The translations under genes and the position numbers were made by a program. From positions 62,001 to 126,000 of the forward strand of contig NZ_SDPQ02000003.1 of the NCBI RefSeq assembly GCF_004134905.2: a DNA stretch of 64,000 nt, in the 5' to 3' direction. This DNA is from Aeromicrobium ginsengisoli (lineage in GTDB: Bacteria > Actinomycetota > Actinomycetes > Propionibacteriales > Nocardioidaceae). Positions within the stretch are counted from its first letter, which is position 1, and each line of letters starts with the position of its first letter. The notes beneath the pieces were generated by a model. The model was not told the DNA's origin, searched no databases, and saw nothing but the letters and a program-made list of their open reading frames with translations. Shown here piece after piece: positions 43,143 through 48,445 of the stretch.

Positions 43143-44480
43143 TCACCGCGTGGTGCTGAGGGTGATCAGCTCGGGGCCGGAGGTCGTGCCGCAGCAACCA
43201 CCGCCGGAGGGCTCGGCGTCGAACCCGCCGGCACCGCCACATACGCCGGTCTCGGGCAGCGTCAGCTCGACGCGTGCCGCGGACTCGTGGTCGCCGGCGA
43301 TCTCGGCCACGACCGACCGGGTCTGCTCGAAACCGGTGAGCGTGAGGAACGAGGTCGCACGCCCGTACGACTTCATGCCGACGAGGTAGAAGCCGACCTC
43401 GGGCTGCGCGAGCTCTTTGGCGCCGTGCGGATAGACCGTGCCACACGAGTGCACGTTGGGATCGATGAGGGGTGCGAGTTGGCGCGGTGCCTGGAGCACA
43501 GGGTCGAGGTCGAGCCGGATCTCGGACAGCATCGACAGGTCGGGGCGGAACCCGGTCAACGCGATGACCTCGTCGACCCCTTCGAGCTCCTGCCCGTCCA
43601 TCGAGGTGAGCGTGAGCGTGCCGTTGTCCGCGCGTACGACCGAGGCCGTGCGGAAGCTGTTGAGCGTACGGACGGGCCCGGACGACACGGCTTCGGCGGC
43701 CCGGCGCCCCAGGGCTCCGCGCTCGGCGAGCTCGTCGTCGTCGCTGCCCTCGAACGCGGCTCCGACGCTGGCCCGGCGGACGAGCCAGGAGACCCGCGTC
43801 GAGGGGTCCTGCTCGGCGAGGGCCACGAGCCCGATGAGCGCGCCCTTGGCCGACGCACCGGTGCCGGCGACGACGACGTGCTTGCCGGCATAGCGCTCTC
43901 TCGTCGCGGGGTCGGCGAGGTCGGGGATCCGGTACGTGATGCGGTCCGCGGCGGCCTGTTCGCCGAGGGCCGGCAGCCCGTCGCCGCCGAGCGGATTGGG
44001 GCCGGTCCATGTACCGGACGCGTCGATCACGGCTCGCGCGGAGATCCGCTCAGCGCCTGCTGCCGACTCGACGTGCACCGTGAACGCCTGGTCCTCACGT
44101 CCGGAGTCGACGAGCCGGTCGCGCCCACTCTTGGCGACGCCGACGACCTTCGTGCCATATCGGACGGTCTCGCCGAGTGCGTCCGCGAGCGGCTGCAGGT
44201 AGTCGTCGGCCCACGTGCCGCCGGTCGGGTACGCAGCCTGGTCAGGGCTCGTCCAGCCGTTCTCGTCGAGCAGCTCGGCGGCGGCCGGGTCGACGAGCTC
44301 CGACCACGGCGAGAACAGGCGTACGTGCGACCACTCCCGCACGGCCGCTCCGGCAACCTGGCCGGCTTCGAGCACGAGGAACGGCAACCCACGACTGCGC
44401 AGCTGCGCGGCGGCCGCGAGGCCTGCGGGGCCGGCACCGATCACGGCGACGGGAAGCTCGGGGTTCTGCAGGTCCGGCAT
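43143..44480 (-). CDS. FAD-dependent oxidoreductase of the arsenic island
   Basis: A 445-residue flavoprotein with a FAD-binding GAGPAGL near residue 13 and a second nucleotide-binding GTGASAKG, the two-Rossmann layout of the flavin monooxygenase/thioredoxin-reductase superfamily. It is divergent from arsR, the usual setting of arsenic-island flavoproteins (ArsO/ArsT-like, inference). The C-terminus carries an unusual cysteine tail, GVCGGAGG and GGGCCGTTSG. The start MPDLQNPEL has AGGAG seven bases upstream. It ends 11 bases after the tRNA, on the opposite strand. Confidence 0.85.
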   Translation of the reverse strand: MPDLQNPELPVAVIGAGPAGLAAAAQLRSRGLPFLVLEAGQVAGAAVREWSHVRLFSPWSELVDPAAAELLDENGWTSPDQAAYPTGGTWADDYLQPLADALGETVRYGTKVVGVAKSGRDRLVDSGREDQAFTVHVESAAGAERISARAVIDASGTWTGPNPLGGDGLPALGEQAAADRITYRIPDLADPATRERYAGKHVVVAGTGASAKGALIGLVALAEQDPSTRVSWLVRRASVGAAFEGSDDDELAERGALGRRAAEAVSSGPVRTLNSFRTASVVRADNGTLTLTSMDGQELEGVDEVIALTGFRPDLSMLSEIRLDLDPVLQAPRQLAPLIDPNVHSCGTVYPHGAKELAQPEVGFYLVGMKSYGRATSFLTLTGFEQTRSVVAEIAGDHESAARVELTLPETGVCGGAGGFDAEPSGGGCCGTTSGPELITLSTTR

Positions 44481-44524
44481 GGGGCGCTCCTGATTCATCC
44501 AAAAGTTTCGATGAATGCGACTGT

Positions 44525-44556
44525 ACCCTTTCATCGACGAATGTCAATGAAAGGGT
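44525..44556. promoter_or_regulatory. Inverted-repeat operator between arsR and the flavoprotein gene
   Basis: ACCCTTTCAT (44525-44534) and ATGAAAGGGT (44547-44556) are a perfect 10-base inverted repeat with a 12-base spacer, ending 11 bases before the arsR ATG. It is a good candidate ArsR operator for both divergent genes. Confidence 0.65.
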
Positions 44557-44567
44557 ATGCTGGATCC

Positions 44568-44915
44568 ATGCCGACCTCGCTGACCGTGCTCGAGTCCGCC
44601 GCCACCGCGTGCTGCTCCCCCATCACACGCGGAGCCCTGAGCGCCGAGGAGGCGAGTGAGCTTGCGGCTCGCTTCAAGGCGATCGGTGACCCGACGCGCC
44701 TGCGTTTGCTGTCGCTCGTCGCGGCGAATGAAGGTGGCGAGGCGTGCGTCTGCGACCTCAACGAGCCCCTCGACCTGTCGCAGCCCACGGTGTCGCACCA
44801 CCTCAAGATCCTGGTCGACGCCGGGTTGCTGACCCGTACGAAGCGCGGCACGTGGTCCTACTACGCGCTGGTCCCGGGCGCCCTCCCGATGCTTGCGGAG
44901 ACCCTGCAAGTCTGA
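44568..44915 (+). CDS. arsR: ArsR-family metalloregulator
   Basis: A 115-residue winged-helix repressor. Cysteines C15 and C16 near the N-terminus and C60-V-C62 in the recognition-helix region (ACVCDL, then LSQPTVSHHL) suit As(III) binding. Arsenite would release it from DNA and induce the divergent flavoprotein gene. The start MPTSLTVLES is placed after the inverted-repeat operator; an upstream ATG at 44547 would read through the operator. The DUF222 gene separates it from arsC. Confidence 0.92.
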   Translation: MPTSLTVLESAATACCSPITRGALSAEEASELAARFKAIGDPTRLRLLSLVAANEGGEACVCDLNEPLDLSQPTVSHHLKILVDAGLLTRTKRGTWSYYALVPGALPMLAETLQV

Positions 44916-44993
44916 GTCAATTCGCGGTCTGACGACCATCCTTTCACATGGGTACGACACGTGATTTGGTCCGCCATTTCAGTGAATAACCTC

Positions 44994-45022
44994 TTGTCAT
45001 CGAACAGGTGTTCGACTAGAGT
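44994..45022 (+). promoter_or_regulatory. Promoter with embedded LexA (SOS) box
   Basis: TTGTCA (44994-44999) and TAGAGT (45017-45022) are 17 bases apart. The perfect palindrome TCGAACAGGTGTTCGA (45000-45015) fills the spacer. It matches the actinobacterial LexA box CGAAC-N4-GTTCG. The ATG starts six bases after the -10, so the transcript would be leaderless. Confidence 0.85.
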
Positions 45023-45028
45023 TGGAGT

Positions 45029-46282
45029 ATGAACCCGCAGCCCACGATCGACGCGATGCGCACCGCCGCGCAGACGCTCCGTGGGGGCGATGTGCGCGAA
45101 CAGCTGCATGCCCTGCAAGAGGCGCAGCACGCGATCGACGCGGCACAAGCCGTCCTGTTGGTGGAGCTGGAGGCGTCGAAGGACTACGAGCTCGACGGCG
45201 CGTCGACCCTGAACACGTGGGTCCGAAACCAGCTGCGGATGAACTCTGGTGAAGCCAACACCCTGGTCCGCGGCGCGATCATCTCCCGCGACTTGCCCTC
45301 AGTTGCCGAAGCTGCCTTCGATGGTCGGATCAGCACTCAGCACGTGCGGGCGTTCGTCTACGGGTTGCGCCACGTCGGGCTCGAACCGATGCGCCAGCAC
45401 GAACAAGTCCTGCTCGCCGTGGCGTTGGAGCACGCACCATCCGACCTGTTCGAAGCCGTCAAGCACCTCAAAGCCCTCGTGCACCCCGAAGACCTCGACG
45501 ACGCCTGGGAACGCGGCATGGATCGCGAAGACTTCAACGTCGAAGCAGTCCCCGACGGCTGGCACGTCAACGGTTTCCTCAACACGATCACCGGCGCCAA
45601 GCTCAAAGCCGTCCTCGACTCGGTGTCAGCACCGCGGGACAAGGACGACGACCGCACCGGATCGCAACGCCGGGTCCAAGGCCTCGACGACCTGCTCGAC
45701 AGCATCCTGGCTGGCGGGCTCCCCTCGGACAAGGGCGTCCGACCCCACGTGTCCGTGTTCGTCGACGCCGACACCGTCGCCGCAGCCGCCGAACACGTCC
45801 AGCAGGCCACCGAGAAGCCGTTCACGACACCCGACCCGATGCCCGAAACCGAACCCGCGAAACTCGCAGGGCACGGTGCGATCGGACCCCACCTGCTGAT
45901 GTACCTGGCGTGCATCGGCGACACCACCGCGTTCCTCACCCAACACCGCGACGGCCAACAAGCCCAGATCATGAATGCCGGGACCATCAAGTACCAACCC
46001 ACCCTCCTGCAACGCCGCGCCGTCCTCGCCCGCCAGAAGGGCGTGTGCGCCACCCCGGGTTGCAAGCACACACATCTGGAGATCCACCACACCATCTGGT
46101 GGCCCCACGGCGGACCCACCGACCTCGACCTCCTCATCGGCCTCTGCGTCAGGTGCCACCACCTCCTCCACCGAGGCCGACTGGCCATCACCGGCAACGC
46201 CGTCACCGGGTTCGAGTTCACCAACCACACCGGCCGCACCCTCCGCCGCCGACGACAAACCACCCACCGCCAAGCCGCCTGA
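45029..46282 (+). CDS. DUF222 / HNH endonuclease-domain protein (13E12 family), SOS-controlled
   Basis: A 417-residue protein. The DUF222 (13E12 repeat) region covers about 30-320. The C-terminal HNH zinc-finger nuclease block has CATPGC, HLEIHH and CVRCHHLLH, giving two cysteine pairs and the metal-binding histidines. The 3' half is richer in CCN and ACC codons than its neighbours. It lies between arsR and arsC, on the opposite strand to arsC, and interrupts the arsenic island. A LexA box covers its promoter. The biological role of this family is not established; several copies per genome are common in mycobacteria and Nocardioides. Confidence 0.9.
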   Translation: MNPQPTIDAMRTAAQTLRGGDVREQLHALQEAQHAIDAAQAVLLVELEASKDYELDGASTLNTWVRNQLRMNSGEANTLVRGAIISRDLPSVAEAAFDGRISTQHVRAFVYGLRHVGLEPMRQHEQVLLAVALEHAPSDLFEAVKHLKALVHPEDLDDAWERGMDREDFNVEAVPDGWHVNGFLNTITGAKLKAVLDSVSAPRDKDDDRTGSQRRVQGLDDLLDSILAGGLPSDKGVRPHVSVFVDADTVAAAAEHVQQATEKPFTTPDPMPETEPAKLAGHGAIGPHLLMYLACIGDTTAFLTQHRDGQQAQIMNAGTIKYQPTLLQRRAVLARQKGVCATPGCKHTHLEIHHTIWWPHGGPTDLDLLIGLCVRCHHLLHRGRLAITGNAVTGFEFTNHTGRTLRRRRQTTHRQAA

Positions 46283-46331
46283 CCACACGTCCGGCGGCCC
46301 ACCGGCGCGCCCGAGTGCGGGCAACCAAGGA

Positions 46332-46730
46332 TCAGTCGAGAGAGGCGATCAGCTGCTCGACGCGGGCCCTGATCTCATCGCGGATCGGGCGGACCGCGTC
46401 GATGCCCTGGCCGGCCGGGTCGTCGAGGACCCAGTCCTCGTAGCGCTTGCCGGGGAAGTACGGGCACTCGTCACCGCAGCCCATCGTGATGACGACGTCC
46501 GACGCGACCACCGCGTCATCGGTCAGCTTCTTGGGCTGCTCGCCGGCAATGTCGATGCCGACCTCGGCCATGGCCTCGACCGCGACGGGGTTGATCTGGT
46601 TGCCGGGCATGGACCCGGCAGAGCGTACGTCGATCCGTCCCTGGCCGAGCGACTGCAGGAAACCCGCAGCCATCTGCGAACGACCGGCGTTGTGCACGCA
46701 GACGAACAGGACACTGGGGCGATCAGGCAT
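46332..46730 (-). CDS. arsC: Arsenate reductase (low-molecular-weight phosphatase fold)
   Basis: Reduces arsenate to arsenite in the cytoplasm. The 132 residues have the P-loop C11-x5-R17-S (CVHNAGRS), then C85 and C89 in GCGDECPYFPG, and WVLDDPAGQ. The cysteine layout fits the thioredoxin- or mycoredoxin-coupled arsenate reductases, which suits a mycothiol user. Its ATG overlaps the aquaporin stop by eight bases, and AAGGAG lies inside the aquaporin's last codons. Confidence 0.92.
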   Translation of the reverse strand: MPDRPSVLFVCVHNAGRSQMAAGFLQSLGQGRIDVRSAGSMPGNQINPVAVEAMAEVGIDIAGEQPKKLTDDAVVASDVVITMGCGDECPYFPGKRYEDWVLDDPAGQGIDAVRPIRDEIRARVEQLIASLD

Positions 46731-47469
46731 GGGGTTCTCCTTGATGGGTGTGCGGCGTGACCGCCTGCGACGGATAGAGCGCGAGGACCAGCACGATGCC
46801 GATCGCTGCGCCGACGATCTGCGCCAGGACGAACGACGGGACCGAGGTCGGCGCGATGCCCGCGAAGGTGTCCGAGAACATCCGGCCGAGCGCCACCGCG
46901 GGATTGGCGAACGACGTCGAGCTCGTGAACCAATAGGCCGCGCCGATGTAGGCACCCACTGCCGGCGCCACCACCGCCGTCCGGTCCGTCCGCACGAGCG
47001 CGAAGATCAGCAGCACCAGGCCTGCCGTTGCGACCACCTCACCGAGAAGGTGGCTGCCGCTGGCTCGTTCGTGTTCCGAGAACGTCGTGCCGACGTCGAA
47101 CATCGCGTTGGCCAGCAGGGCGCCCGCGACCGCTCCCGCCGATTGCGCGGCGACGTACGGCACGATGTGGCGCGCCGAGAAGCCTTCGAGATCGCGTCGG
47201 GACAGGAACCAGTCGGCGACCGTGACCACGGGATTGAAGTGCGCGCCCGAGACCGGGCCGAGCATCAGGATGAGGACCGCGAGGCCGAGGACAGTCGCGG
47301 TGCTGTTCTCGAGAAGTTGGAGACCCGTGTCGCGCGGTGAGAGGTCAGCCGCCGCGATGCCCGAGCCCACAACGACGGTGACCAGCAGGCCGGTGCCGAG
47401 CAGCTCGGCGAGAAGCCGACGGCCGAGCGGTTGGGGAGCGGTCGCAGTCGGCGCGTCACTGTTCGTCAC
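46723..47469 (-). CDS. Aquaporin/glyceroporin-type channel of the arsenic island
   Basis: A 248-residue MIP-family channel with six helices. The first NPA loop reads HFNPVVT and the second FANPAVALGR, so loop one has NPV in place of NPA. In arsenic islands without ArsB or Acr3 an aquaporin of this type lets arsenite leave down its gradient (AqpS precedent). The GTG at 47469 is my choice; further in-frame GTGs lie at 47490 and 47496. It is divergent from the ArsR-phosphatase fusion and overlaps arsC by eight bases. Confidence 0.88.
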   Translation of the reverse strand: MTNSDAPTATAPQPLGRRLLAELLGTGLLVTVVVGSGIAAADLSPRDTGLQLLENSTATVLGLAVLILMLGPVSGAHFNPVVTVADWFLSRRDLEGFSARHIVPYVAAQSAGAVAGALLANAMFDVGTTFSEHERASGSHLLGEVVATAGLVLLIFALVRTDRTAVVAPAVGAYIGAAYWFTSSTSFANPAVALGRMFSDTFAGIAPTSVPSFVLAQIVGAAIGIVLVLALYPSQAVTPHTHQGEPHA

Positions 47470-47514
47470 GAGCTCATCTTGACGTCTCACAGTCACTCAG
47501 TCAAACTCGACTCA

Positions 47515-48186
47515 ATGACTACTGAGCGAACTGCCCTTGAGGCACGGGCGGCACACCACGCAGCGCTCGCCGACGCCGCACGCCTCGCCGTGATGGATGA
47601 GCTCACGCTCGGCGACCGGTCTCCCAGCGAGCTCCAAGCGATGCTCGACCTGCCTTCAAACTTGATGGCCCACCACCTCAAGGTGCTGGAGGACGCGGGG
47701 TTGATCCTCCGGAGGCGATCCGAGGGTGATCGGCGCCGCACCTACTTGACGCTGGTCGCCGACGCCCCCGAGGAACCGGCCCCAGCTCCGGGGCTGCGTG
47801 TGGGACGTGTGGTGTTCGTCTGCTCAGCGAACTCCGCACGCTCTCAGCTGGCGGCCGCATTGTGGCGCAGGTCCAGCACGATCTCCGTCGCATCCGCGGG
47901 GACCCATCCTGCTGAACGCGTCTCCGAGGGCGCCAAGGCTGCAGCTAAGAGACACGCACTCAAGCTCACGCGTACGAAGCCACAACGGCTCGCCGACATC
48001 GCCTCGGCAGACGACTACATCGTCGCGGTGTGCGACAACGCCTATGAAGAGCTTGGCTCCCGGGTCGCCCTGCACTGGTCGATCCCCGATCCCGTGCCGA
48101 ACGGGAGTGACGCCGCCTTCGACTCGGCGTACGCGGAACTCGACCGCCGCGTCAGGAGACTCGCCCCGCTGCTGACCGCGTCGTGA
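47515..48186 (+). CDS. ArsR - low-molecular-weight phosphatase fusion
   Basis: A 223-residue fusion. Residues 1-90 are an ArsR winged-helix domain (LPSNLMAHHLKVLEDAGLI). Residues 98-223 are a low-molecular-weight phosphatase/ArsC domain with the P-loop C103-x5-R109-S (CSANSARS). The fusion may both sense arsenic and act on arsenate, or use the phosphatase fold as a sensor. The regulatory half lacks an obvious cysteine pair. No ribosome site is seen before the ATG, so it may be leaderless. Its stop overlaps the convergent DUF2892-like gene by 35 bases. Confidence 0.9.
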   Translation: MTTERTALEARAAHHAALADAARLAVMDELTLGDRSPSELQAMLDLPSNLMAHHLKVLEDAGLILRRRSEGDRRRTYLTLVADAPEEPAPAPGLRVGRVVFVCSANSARSQLAAALWRRSSTISVASAGTHPAERVSEGAKAAAKRHALKLTRTKPQRLADIASADDYIVAVCDNAYEELGSRVALHWSIPDPVPNGSDAAFDSAYAELDRRVRRLAPLLTAS

Positions 48187-48445
48187 CCTGACCGTCGCGG
48201 ATCTTCCGGCTCGAGAGCGGGCCGCCCAGCGCAGCGCTGATCCAGCACAGGTCGAAGAGGCCGGCGCTCAGCGGGAAGAAGCTCCACGTCATCGCGGCGA
48301 CGCCCCACCAGTGATCGCGAAAGAGCAGCCCGAACGTGAGCCAGGCGAGACCGGCGACGAGCCGGAAGGCGCGACCGTGCGTGCCGTTGACCCAGCGGGA
48401 GAAGCCCGTGGCGTTGAACCGTGCGGCGGTGGAGTCGTGCGACAT
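48152..48445 (-). CDS. Small DUF2892-like membrane protein
   Basis: A 97-residue protein with the NGTHGRAFRLVAGLAWL opening helix and a second helix with PLSAGLFDLCWISAALGG, the layout of DUF2892/YgaP-like inner-membrane proteins. These often accompany sulfur-transfer or metal-resistance genes. AGGGAG precedes the ATG at 48445. It converges on the ArsR fusion and is divergent from the AraC-type gene. The function is unknown. Confidence 0.75.
   Translation of the reverse strand: MSHDSTAARFNATGFSRWVNGTHGRAFRLVAGLAWLTFGLLFRDHWWGVAAMTWSFFPLSAGLFDLCWISAALGGPLSSRKIRDGQVTTRSAAGRVS

Follow-up and report, generated by a model that had tools for sequence, protein, structure and literature searches.

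What is a gene of the DUF222/HNH (13E12) family for, if its start codon lies directly behind what appears to be a binding site for LexA? The question is raised by a locus in a 64-kb stretch of an Aeromicrobium genome, referred to here as the window. A sequence-only reading of the window had proposed that a perfect SOS box fills the spacer between the TTGTCA and TAGAGT hexamers of the gene's promoter, that the ATG begins six bases after the −10 hexamer, and that the site suggests a DNA-damage role for the family.

Results

A putative LexA operator occupies the promoter spacer of a DUF222-HNH gene

The proposed layout is borne out by the window sequence (Table 1). The palindrome is exact at 45000–45015 and makes up 16 nt of the 17-nt spacer; a single C at 45016 lies between it and the −10 hexamer, which ends at 45022, and TGGAGT (45023–45028) separates this hexamer from the ATG at 45029. 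Because of the position of the −10 hexamer, transcription would be expected to begin at or adjacent to the start codon. The exact TCGAACNNNNGTTCGA pattern, found here inside the −35/−10 spacer, occurs once within the 64-kb window and in none of 100 dinucleotide shuffles of it, and base composition predicts 0.0015 occurrences. For comparison, the mycobacterial SOS consensus is given as TCGAAC(N)4GTTCGA in PMC4181829. Judged by comparison, the site is the LexA operator of a promoter of sigma70 type, with the start codon where transcription should begin.

Table 1. Positions in the window of the promoter elements, the gene, its predicted domains and the ends of the repeat unit.
Feature	Position	Strand	Basis or remark
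Unit left end, CAT(C/T)NTTNCAC..GG.(T)CGGACA type	44937–44959	+	onset of homology between copies
AT-rich stretch ATTTCAGTGAATAA, possible UP-like element	44976–44989	+	5′ of −35
−35 hexamer TTGTCA	44994–44999	+	read from sequence; conserved TTG columns in relatives' promoters
Putative LexA operator (SOS box) TCGAACAGGTGTTCGA	45000–45015	+	exact palindrome; boxes also at SOS genes of the genome
−10 hexamer TAGAGT	45017–45022	+	17-nt spacer from −35
DUF222-HNH gene, 417 aa	45029–46282	+	start codon at expected transcription start (putatively leaderless)
Predicted ParB/Noc-type helix-turn-helix domain, residues 29–150	45113–45478	+	model, structure match and profile alignment
HNH domain, residues 339–382	46043–46174	+	HH and final CH retained; Leu368 in place of the central Asn
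Unit right end GTCCGGCGGCCCACCGGCGCG	46289–46309	+	20-nt motif directly past the stop codon

The operator-promoter module is found before DUF222 genes throughout the genus

A composite promoter, consisting of the box, N-TA-N3-T, 5–7 nt and RTG, was searched for in 49 Aeromicrobium genomes without reference to any protein. It was found at 69 sites in 23 of the 49 genomes, and the reversed pattern at none. Sixty-three of these sites adjoin relatives of the window protein among the matches listed, and the other six are each followed by a similar protein: four are DUF222 by Pfam, one (L241) was recognized by eye, and one (L240) is a 49-residue start of DUF222 type cut by a contig end. The four Pfam-positive proteins are divergent, with HNH below the cut-off in two and unmatched in the other two (one cut short). 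A LexA-type site in the promoter of a DUF222/HNH gene, as the sequence-only reading had claimed, is thus supported genus-wide, 68 of the 69 sites preceding DUF222-type proteins; the composite promoter stands before other gene types at none of the 69. Relatives of the window protein are present in at least 46 of the 49 genomes, at 0 to 14 copies per genome among the matches listed.

The geometry of the promoter was compared in 41 copies, namely the window's own and 40 chosen among the matches listed by score and copy number with the promoter ignored. The box is exact in 34 of them, while the bases at its centre and in the flanks differ from copy to copy; three copies have one mismatch, one has two, two have three, and the single copy with five is one without its 5′ end. 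Where the box has no more than one mismatch (37 copies), it ends 12–14 nt before the start codon. In a set of 44 non-redundant promoters, of which two come from beyond the genus, the −35 TTG at this spacing is also conserved (T in 43, T in 34 and G in 37 of the 44), although these columns were absent from the search pattern. Given this conserved arrangement of box and hexamers, LexA would sit where polymerase contacts the spacer. In the same 44 promoters several columns at −34 to −21 before the box carry 0.3–0.8 bits; judged by eye, the window's AT-rich stretch lies ∼10 nt closer to the box than those of its relatives. What appears to be new is a rigid operator-promoter with the start codon right behind it, found in Aeromicrobium before the DUF222 family only.

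A LexA regulon is apparent in the same genome

Boxes also accompany SOS-type genes in the window's own genome. A LexA-like open reading frame (L036:277-1035, minus strand) has its own box, TCAAACATATGTTCGA, and further boxes lie at RecA-like (L035), RuvC-like (L010) and ImuA′-like (L008) reading frames, all named from their translations. The SOS reading is sound because boxes precede these lexA-, recA-, ruvC- and imuA′-like genes here as well. Their boxes do not fit the composite promoter, and the single composite site of this genome is that of the window.

In the whole genome (4.0 Mb) there are four exact box sites, with ∼0.09 expected from the window's composition. Two of the four lie at opposite ends of one contig, C1, within the same ∼125 bases (L006:1-125 and L007). 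Close to where a reading frame ends (..ITDKVEHLFEW), this repeat carries an exact TCGAACACCTGTTCGA; it is probably one terminus of a multi-copy insertion sequence at which the assembly broke off, and its two exact boxes are probably not operators. With up to one mismatch there are 41 sites against 16 for the reversed pattern, and therefore some of the one-mismatch sites, possibly a third or more, belong to the background.

An HMM search (five matches) finds four DUF222 genes in this genome, the fourth of which is cut by a contig end and stands outside the box count. The sequence-only reading had suggested looking for the same box at the other DUF222 genes, and the outcome is divided: all three genes with an intact 5′ end (the window gene, C2:915263 and C2:1222497) have a start-adjacent box with at most one mismatch, but the exact box in this layout is confined to the window's gene. 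The gene at C2:1222497 (L022:1006-2288, from C2:1222505) is split over two frames, its pieces being 32% and 45% identical to the L021 protein, and is either a broken gene or the product of a sequencing error. A 39-residue fragment, L024, is 95% identical to one of the genome's DUF222 genes and has retained its box.

Beyond the genus, top-scoring rather than random DUF222 loci were sampled from the order and the class and were scanned over an interval that starts 400 nt 5′ of the domain match and extends 20 nt into it. Boxes with no more than one mismatch are present at 6 of 30 order loci and 17 of 27 class loci (reversed control, 0 of 57); with at most two mismatches, the class locus L186 being one such case, the counts rise to 10 and 21 (control, 1 of 57). 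SOS control thus seems to be common, and not universal, across the family.

The promoter and gene form a discrete, dispersed unit

Alignment of the copies indicates that the promoter is part of a discrete repeat unit of ∼1.37 kb, spanning 44937–46309 in the window. Homology between copies begins 94–118 nt 5′ of the start codon in G002, G022, G041 and the close G008 pair, and closer to the start in G044, G047 and G048. Within single genomes, the block shared by copies of the window's subfamily reaches from 29–118 nt before the start codon to 17–54 nt past the stop codon. Close copies are 80–98% identical, and pairs that include the divergent L110, L111 and L114–L116 are 64–73% identical and share less. 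Outside the block, BLAST gave no match between copies of one genome except for repeated upstream stretches in G040. The blocks of the G040 and G042 subfamilies extend upstream to −327 and −193, respectively, their homology stops at about the stop codon, and they are without the right-end motif. In G040 (L095–L099), repeated stretches of 70–80 bp lie ∼150–460 nt before the DUF222 genes, several per locus, and at L095 similar repeats also occur 1.6–2.0 kb before the gene.

The right-end motif, allowing one mismatch, has 36 matches in the 49 genomes against one for the reversed pattern. Thirty-one of them directly follow DUF222 matches, three of which are incomplete. The other five comprise a contig-cut unit (L253), two matches in unrelated sequence and two probable relics: L254, by eye, appears to be a unit fused left end to right end by an internal deletion, and L251 is a right end standing alone where G048 carries the complete unit L100 (by-eye match of the flanks).

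An empty site was also found. One G002 copy sits between two genes in convergent orientation, and its flanks match sequences in G008 that are only 77 bp apart, so that the distance between these genes differs by 1.35 kb. The unit thus has the dispersed repetition, discrete ends and empty site of an insertion sequence. By-eye inspection of the unit ends gave no convincing target-site duplication or terminal inverted repeat, and Pfam at E 0.1 finds DUF222 and HNH alone in the window protein, with no known transposase.

Gain, loss and selection

The window's own copy appears to be older. The unit occupies the same place in G019 and G022, which are two other species, so that the unit is often passed on quietly; a clean empty site was not found for this copy, G019 and G022 being occupied. 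In G041 the interval between arsR and arsC is instead taken up by a MarR-like and an SDR-like gene (names by eye). The surroundings of the unit (window 43143–48200) form an arsenic-type cluster, named from translations, in the order monooxygenase-like (−), arsR-like (+), DUF222 unit, arsC-like (−), aquaporin-like (−) and arsR-arsC-type fusion (+).

Beside an uppS-like gene (identified by eye), the unit is absent from G000 and G019 and present in G022, G041 and G012. This locus was rejected as a clean single-step empty site, other DNA differing there too. The uppS-side copies of G041 and G022 are 75% identical though their flanks are 91–94% identical, and two copies within G041 are 92% identical to each other; this contrast points to re-insertion or conversion within the genome. 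Clustering by genome is seen in a protein tree of 37 of the 41 copies, from 13 genomes (L110, L115, L119 and L120 were left out): 13 changes are needed, with a minimum of 12 and a shuffled mean of 28.4. The G008 and G024 copies do not cluster by genome.

In 19 pairs of copies, 16 within genomes and three between them, dN/dS ranges from 0.04 to 0.30, values that indicate purifying selection on the DUF222-HNH protein. The protein query has one partial match (residues 278–391) among 50,697 phage records and one match (residues 333–397) among 72,556 plasmid records. A phage or plasmid origin was rejected on these counts, and the near relatives of the window protein look chromosomal.

The protein joins a predicted ParB-type domain to an HNH domain

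The window protein contains the Pfam domains DUF222 (PF02720; E 2.7e-24, 86.5 bits against a cut-off of 24.4) and HNH (PF01844; E 2.5e-5, 24.7 bits against 21.4). PHROGs matches fall in its C-terminal part and are mostly to HNH families. NCBIfam offers no strong match, the best being guided_IscB with 28.9 bits against a cut-off of 175, over the HNH part only. The solved structures that the HNH part resembles are those of McrA-type enzymes, a maturase reverse transcriptase and IscB; the McrA-type modification-dependent restriction enzymes are the closest. All 41 proteins retain the HH and the last CH, but just two of the 41 have the central Asn. The window protein itself departs from the His-Asn-His catalytic pattern, having Leu368 at the Asn position. 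Given how few copies keep the Asn, the nuclease activity may be altered or lost.

A model of the full-length protein is weak (pLDDT 73, pTM 0.42), and the N-terminal part was therefore modelled alone (residues 1–170, pLDDT 92.8). The top 11 structure matches are all DNA-binding domains of the ParB family (Noc, ParB, Spo0J and KorB), with Z 7.3–11.1 and rmsd 2.0–2.9 over 97–103 residues; the next row has Z 6.8 at rmsd 8.4. Noc is the best match (VIA-align Z 11.1, rmsd 2.2, 101 residues), and the Noc DNA-binding domain 6y93 is covered at 103 of its 105 residues with Z 10.6. The match spans the whole domain and stands above unrelated folds, under the caution that helical models can reach Z 13 from arrangement alone. 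In Foldseek the best ParB match has a probability of 1.00 with a non-significant E of 0.19.

Profile comparison gave a score above those of its six controls. With hhalign, DUF222 aligns to a ParB profile over 48 columns with a score of 25.2 (probability 18.6%, P 0.0013), and one reversed and five shuffled controls score 10.0–13.9; the ParB profile was built from 29 of 30 domains, L282 being cut by a contig end and left out. The alignment sets LP..AEAA..GRIS..H of DUF222 against LP..V...V..G.LS.GHA of ParB, a stretch which we take to be a ParB hallmark. A PDB sequence search with the N-terminal profile returned nothing significant, Spo0J ranking fourth at E 0.43. What DUF222 would have in common with the ParB, Noc, Spo0J and KorB domains is a predicted fold over the 97–103 residues together with the stretch LP......G.(I/L)S..H; in contrast to ParB proteins, the partner domain of the window protein is HNH, and Pfam at E 0.1 finds no ParB N-terminal domain. 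On the model and the alignments, a ParB-like DNA-binding domain within the N-terminal DUF222 is likely.

Discussion

A proposed self-spreading nuclease under LexA control

The reading that we favor, at a probability of about one half, is that the unit is a LexA-repressed gene for a sequence-specific nuclease and that it furthers its own spread or gene conversion. LexA bound between the −35 and −10 hexamers would block RNA polymerase; upon DNA damage LexA would be cleaved and a leaderless mRNA made. The product would combine a ParB/Noc-type DNA-binding domain, within the N-terminal DUF222, with a C-terminal HNH nuclease domain, and would cut or nick a specific DNA site. Repair of the break in SOS-induced, recombination-ready cells would then copy the unit to new intergenic places and convert existing copies. 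The genome comparison supports the LexA-type promoter, its genus-wide restriction to the DUF222 family, the unit ends, gain and loss, and purifying selection.

Several results count against this reading. By eye, the unit ends gave neither a target-site duplication nor a clear terminal inverted repeat, and the G040 and G042 subfamilies are without the right-end motif. The tendency of copies to cluster by genome is also compatible with gene conversion through ordinary recombination, a tendency that G008 and G024 do not share. The HNH Asn is kept in two of 41 proteins, and the unit at the window site has been inherited across species. Also to be set against the reading are the Foldseek E of 0.19, the non-significant PDB sequence search, the hhalign probability of 18.6%, the caution on helical Z scores, and the presence of boxes at just 6 of the 30 order loci.

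Alternative explanations

The protein could instead be a host nuclease that handles damaged or mismatched DNA in the SOS response, its copies having arisen by ordinary duplication. This is unlikely, though it would account for both the SOS control and the low dN/dS, and a 2014 network paper (PMC4181829) does propose 13E12 HNH proteins in a LexA-controlled repair system. DUF222 matches, often multicopy, occur in 173 of 246 sampled class genomes and are absent from the other 73, and copy number in the genus varies from 0 to 14 among the matches listed. A dispersed unit with conserved ends and relics is nothing that a repair enzyme needs, and a site-specific DNA-binding domain is a poor fit to repair. 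A mobile, self-spreading nuclease fits better than a host repair enzyme because of the dispersed unit, the empty site and the relics. The DNA-damage role suggested by the sequence-only reading is not supported in the form in which it was stated, SOS control bearing on when the gene is expressed and not on repair.

We hold it equally improbable that the protein is an SOS-induced defence nuclease cutting phage or plasmid DNA that enters under stress. The McrA-type restriction enzymes nearest to its HNH domain among solved structures would suit such a role; however, PADLOC gives no match better than E 0.013, and the open reading frames at 41–49.5 kb, inspected by eye, include no defence gene and look arsenic-related. 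Nor would a defence gene usually be present in so many similar copies in one genome.

Nor do we think it probable that the unit is a passenger repeat, moved in trans or spread solely through homologous recombination and gene conversion, with the protein serving otherwise, for example as a ParB-like DNA organiser. No transposase-like ends were seen, copies cluster by genome in the protein tree, the HNH Asn is missing from 39 of 41 proteins, and REP13E12 repeats are described as gene-conversion hotspots of M. tuberculosis with no defined biological function in a preprint (PMC13061034), all of which a passenger would explain. Against it stand the discrete ends and the 1.35-kb difference between the same two genes in G002 and G008, as well as dN/dS values well below 1 and the conservation of HH and CH in 41 of 41 proteins.

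Finally, that the box is a chance palindrome to which LexA does not bind is scarcely credible and was rejected: one-mismatch boxes do turn up as background (16 with the control pattern), but the exact box is absent from all 100 shuffles, is kept in 34 of 41 copies while central bases and flanks vary, defines 69 composite sites against none reversed, and shows a genome-wide excess over the reversed pattern.

Relation to known systems

The self-spreading nuclease proposed here has partial counterparts. Free-standing HNH homing endonucleases are single-gene selfish nucleases without a transposase; the DUF222-HNH units differ from them in the predicted ParB-type DNA-binding domain and in having copies at different sites. 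The ISCR transposase is of the rolling-circle type. Its genes, according to PMC13393415, are LexA-repressed and induced by DNA damage, likewise placing the enzyme gene of a mobile element under LexA. The enzyme here is an HNH protein, and the ends and hosts of ISCR differ.

In M. tuberculosis, Rv0515, Rv1702c, Rv3074 and Rv3776 are listed as 13E12 members of the LexA regulon in PMC5005354, where these genes are also said to show mobile-element characteristics. This agrees with the sequence-only reading, in which 13E12-family genes with LexA sites were said to be known in M. tuberculosis, and the window gene resembles them in this respect. REP13E12/HNH/DUF222 sequences were caught by a mobile-element finder and classed as other repetitive elements near insertion sequences, as stated in PMC10589994. 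The comparison, made within Aeromicrobium, differs in showing a rigid, genus-wide module with the box in the −35/−10 spacer and the start codon right after it, in documenting the ends of the unit, a site empty of it and probable relics, and in proposing a ParB-like domain. A literature search that had most subscription journals outside its reach returned no link of DUF222/13E12 to ParB and no report of this promoter module. LexA control of DUF222/HNH genes is thus known in kind; the additions are the promoter module, the definition of the unit and a probable ParB-type domain joined to HNH.

More tentatively, DUF222-HNH units may be a class of mobile element of their own, in which a leaderless, LexA-repressed gene for a ParB-type nuclease would copy its unit to intergenic sites and convert paralogues upon DNA damage. 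If so, the REP13E12 gene-conversion hotspots of M. tuberculosis would also be explained. Should every copy be a LexA-controlled, ParB-guided nuclease carried in its own transferable unit, damage to DNA would set off genome rearrangement or gene conversion in these bacteria; the family is widespread in soil bacteria and mycobacteria. With a defined operator, a DNA-binding domain and unit ends, the function of DUF222 becomes directly testable.

Other SOS-like boxes in the genome

Two further observations concern boxes away from DUF222 genes. Close to the lexA-like gene, three SOS-like boxes lie within 83 bases (L036:3046-3128) before a LysM-domain-like reading frame, which is perhaps an SOS cell-division inhibitor. 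SOS-like boxes also adjoin small reading frames that, by eye, share RHVWV...G.L..W (L031 ∼986, L016 1501 and L014 1501; genome positions C2:827285, C1:668888 and C1:503807), possibly a family of small SOS-linked proteins.
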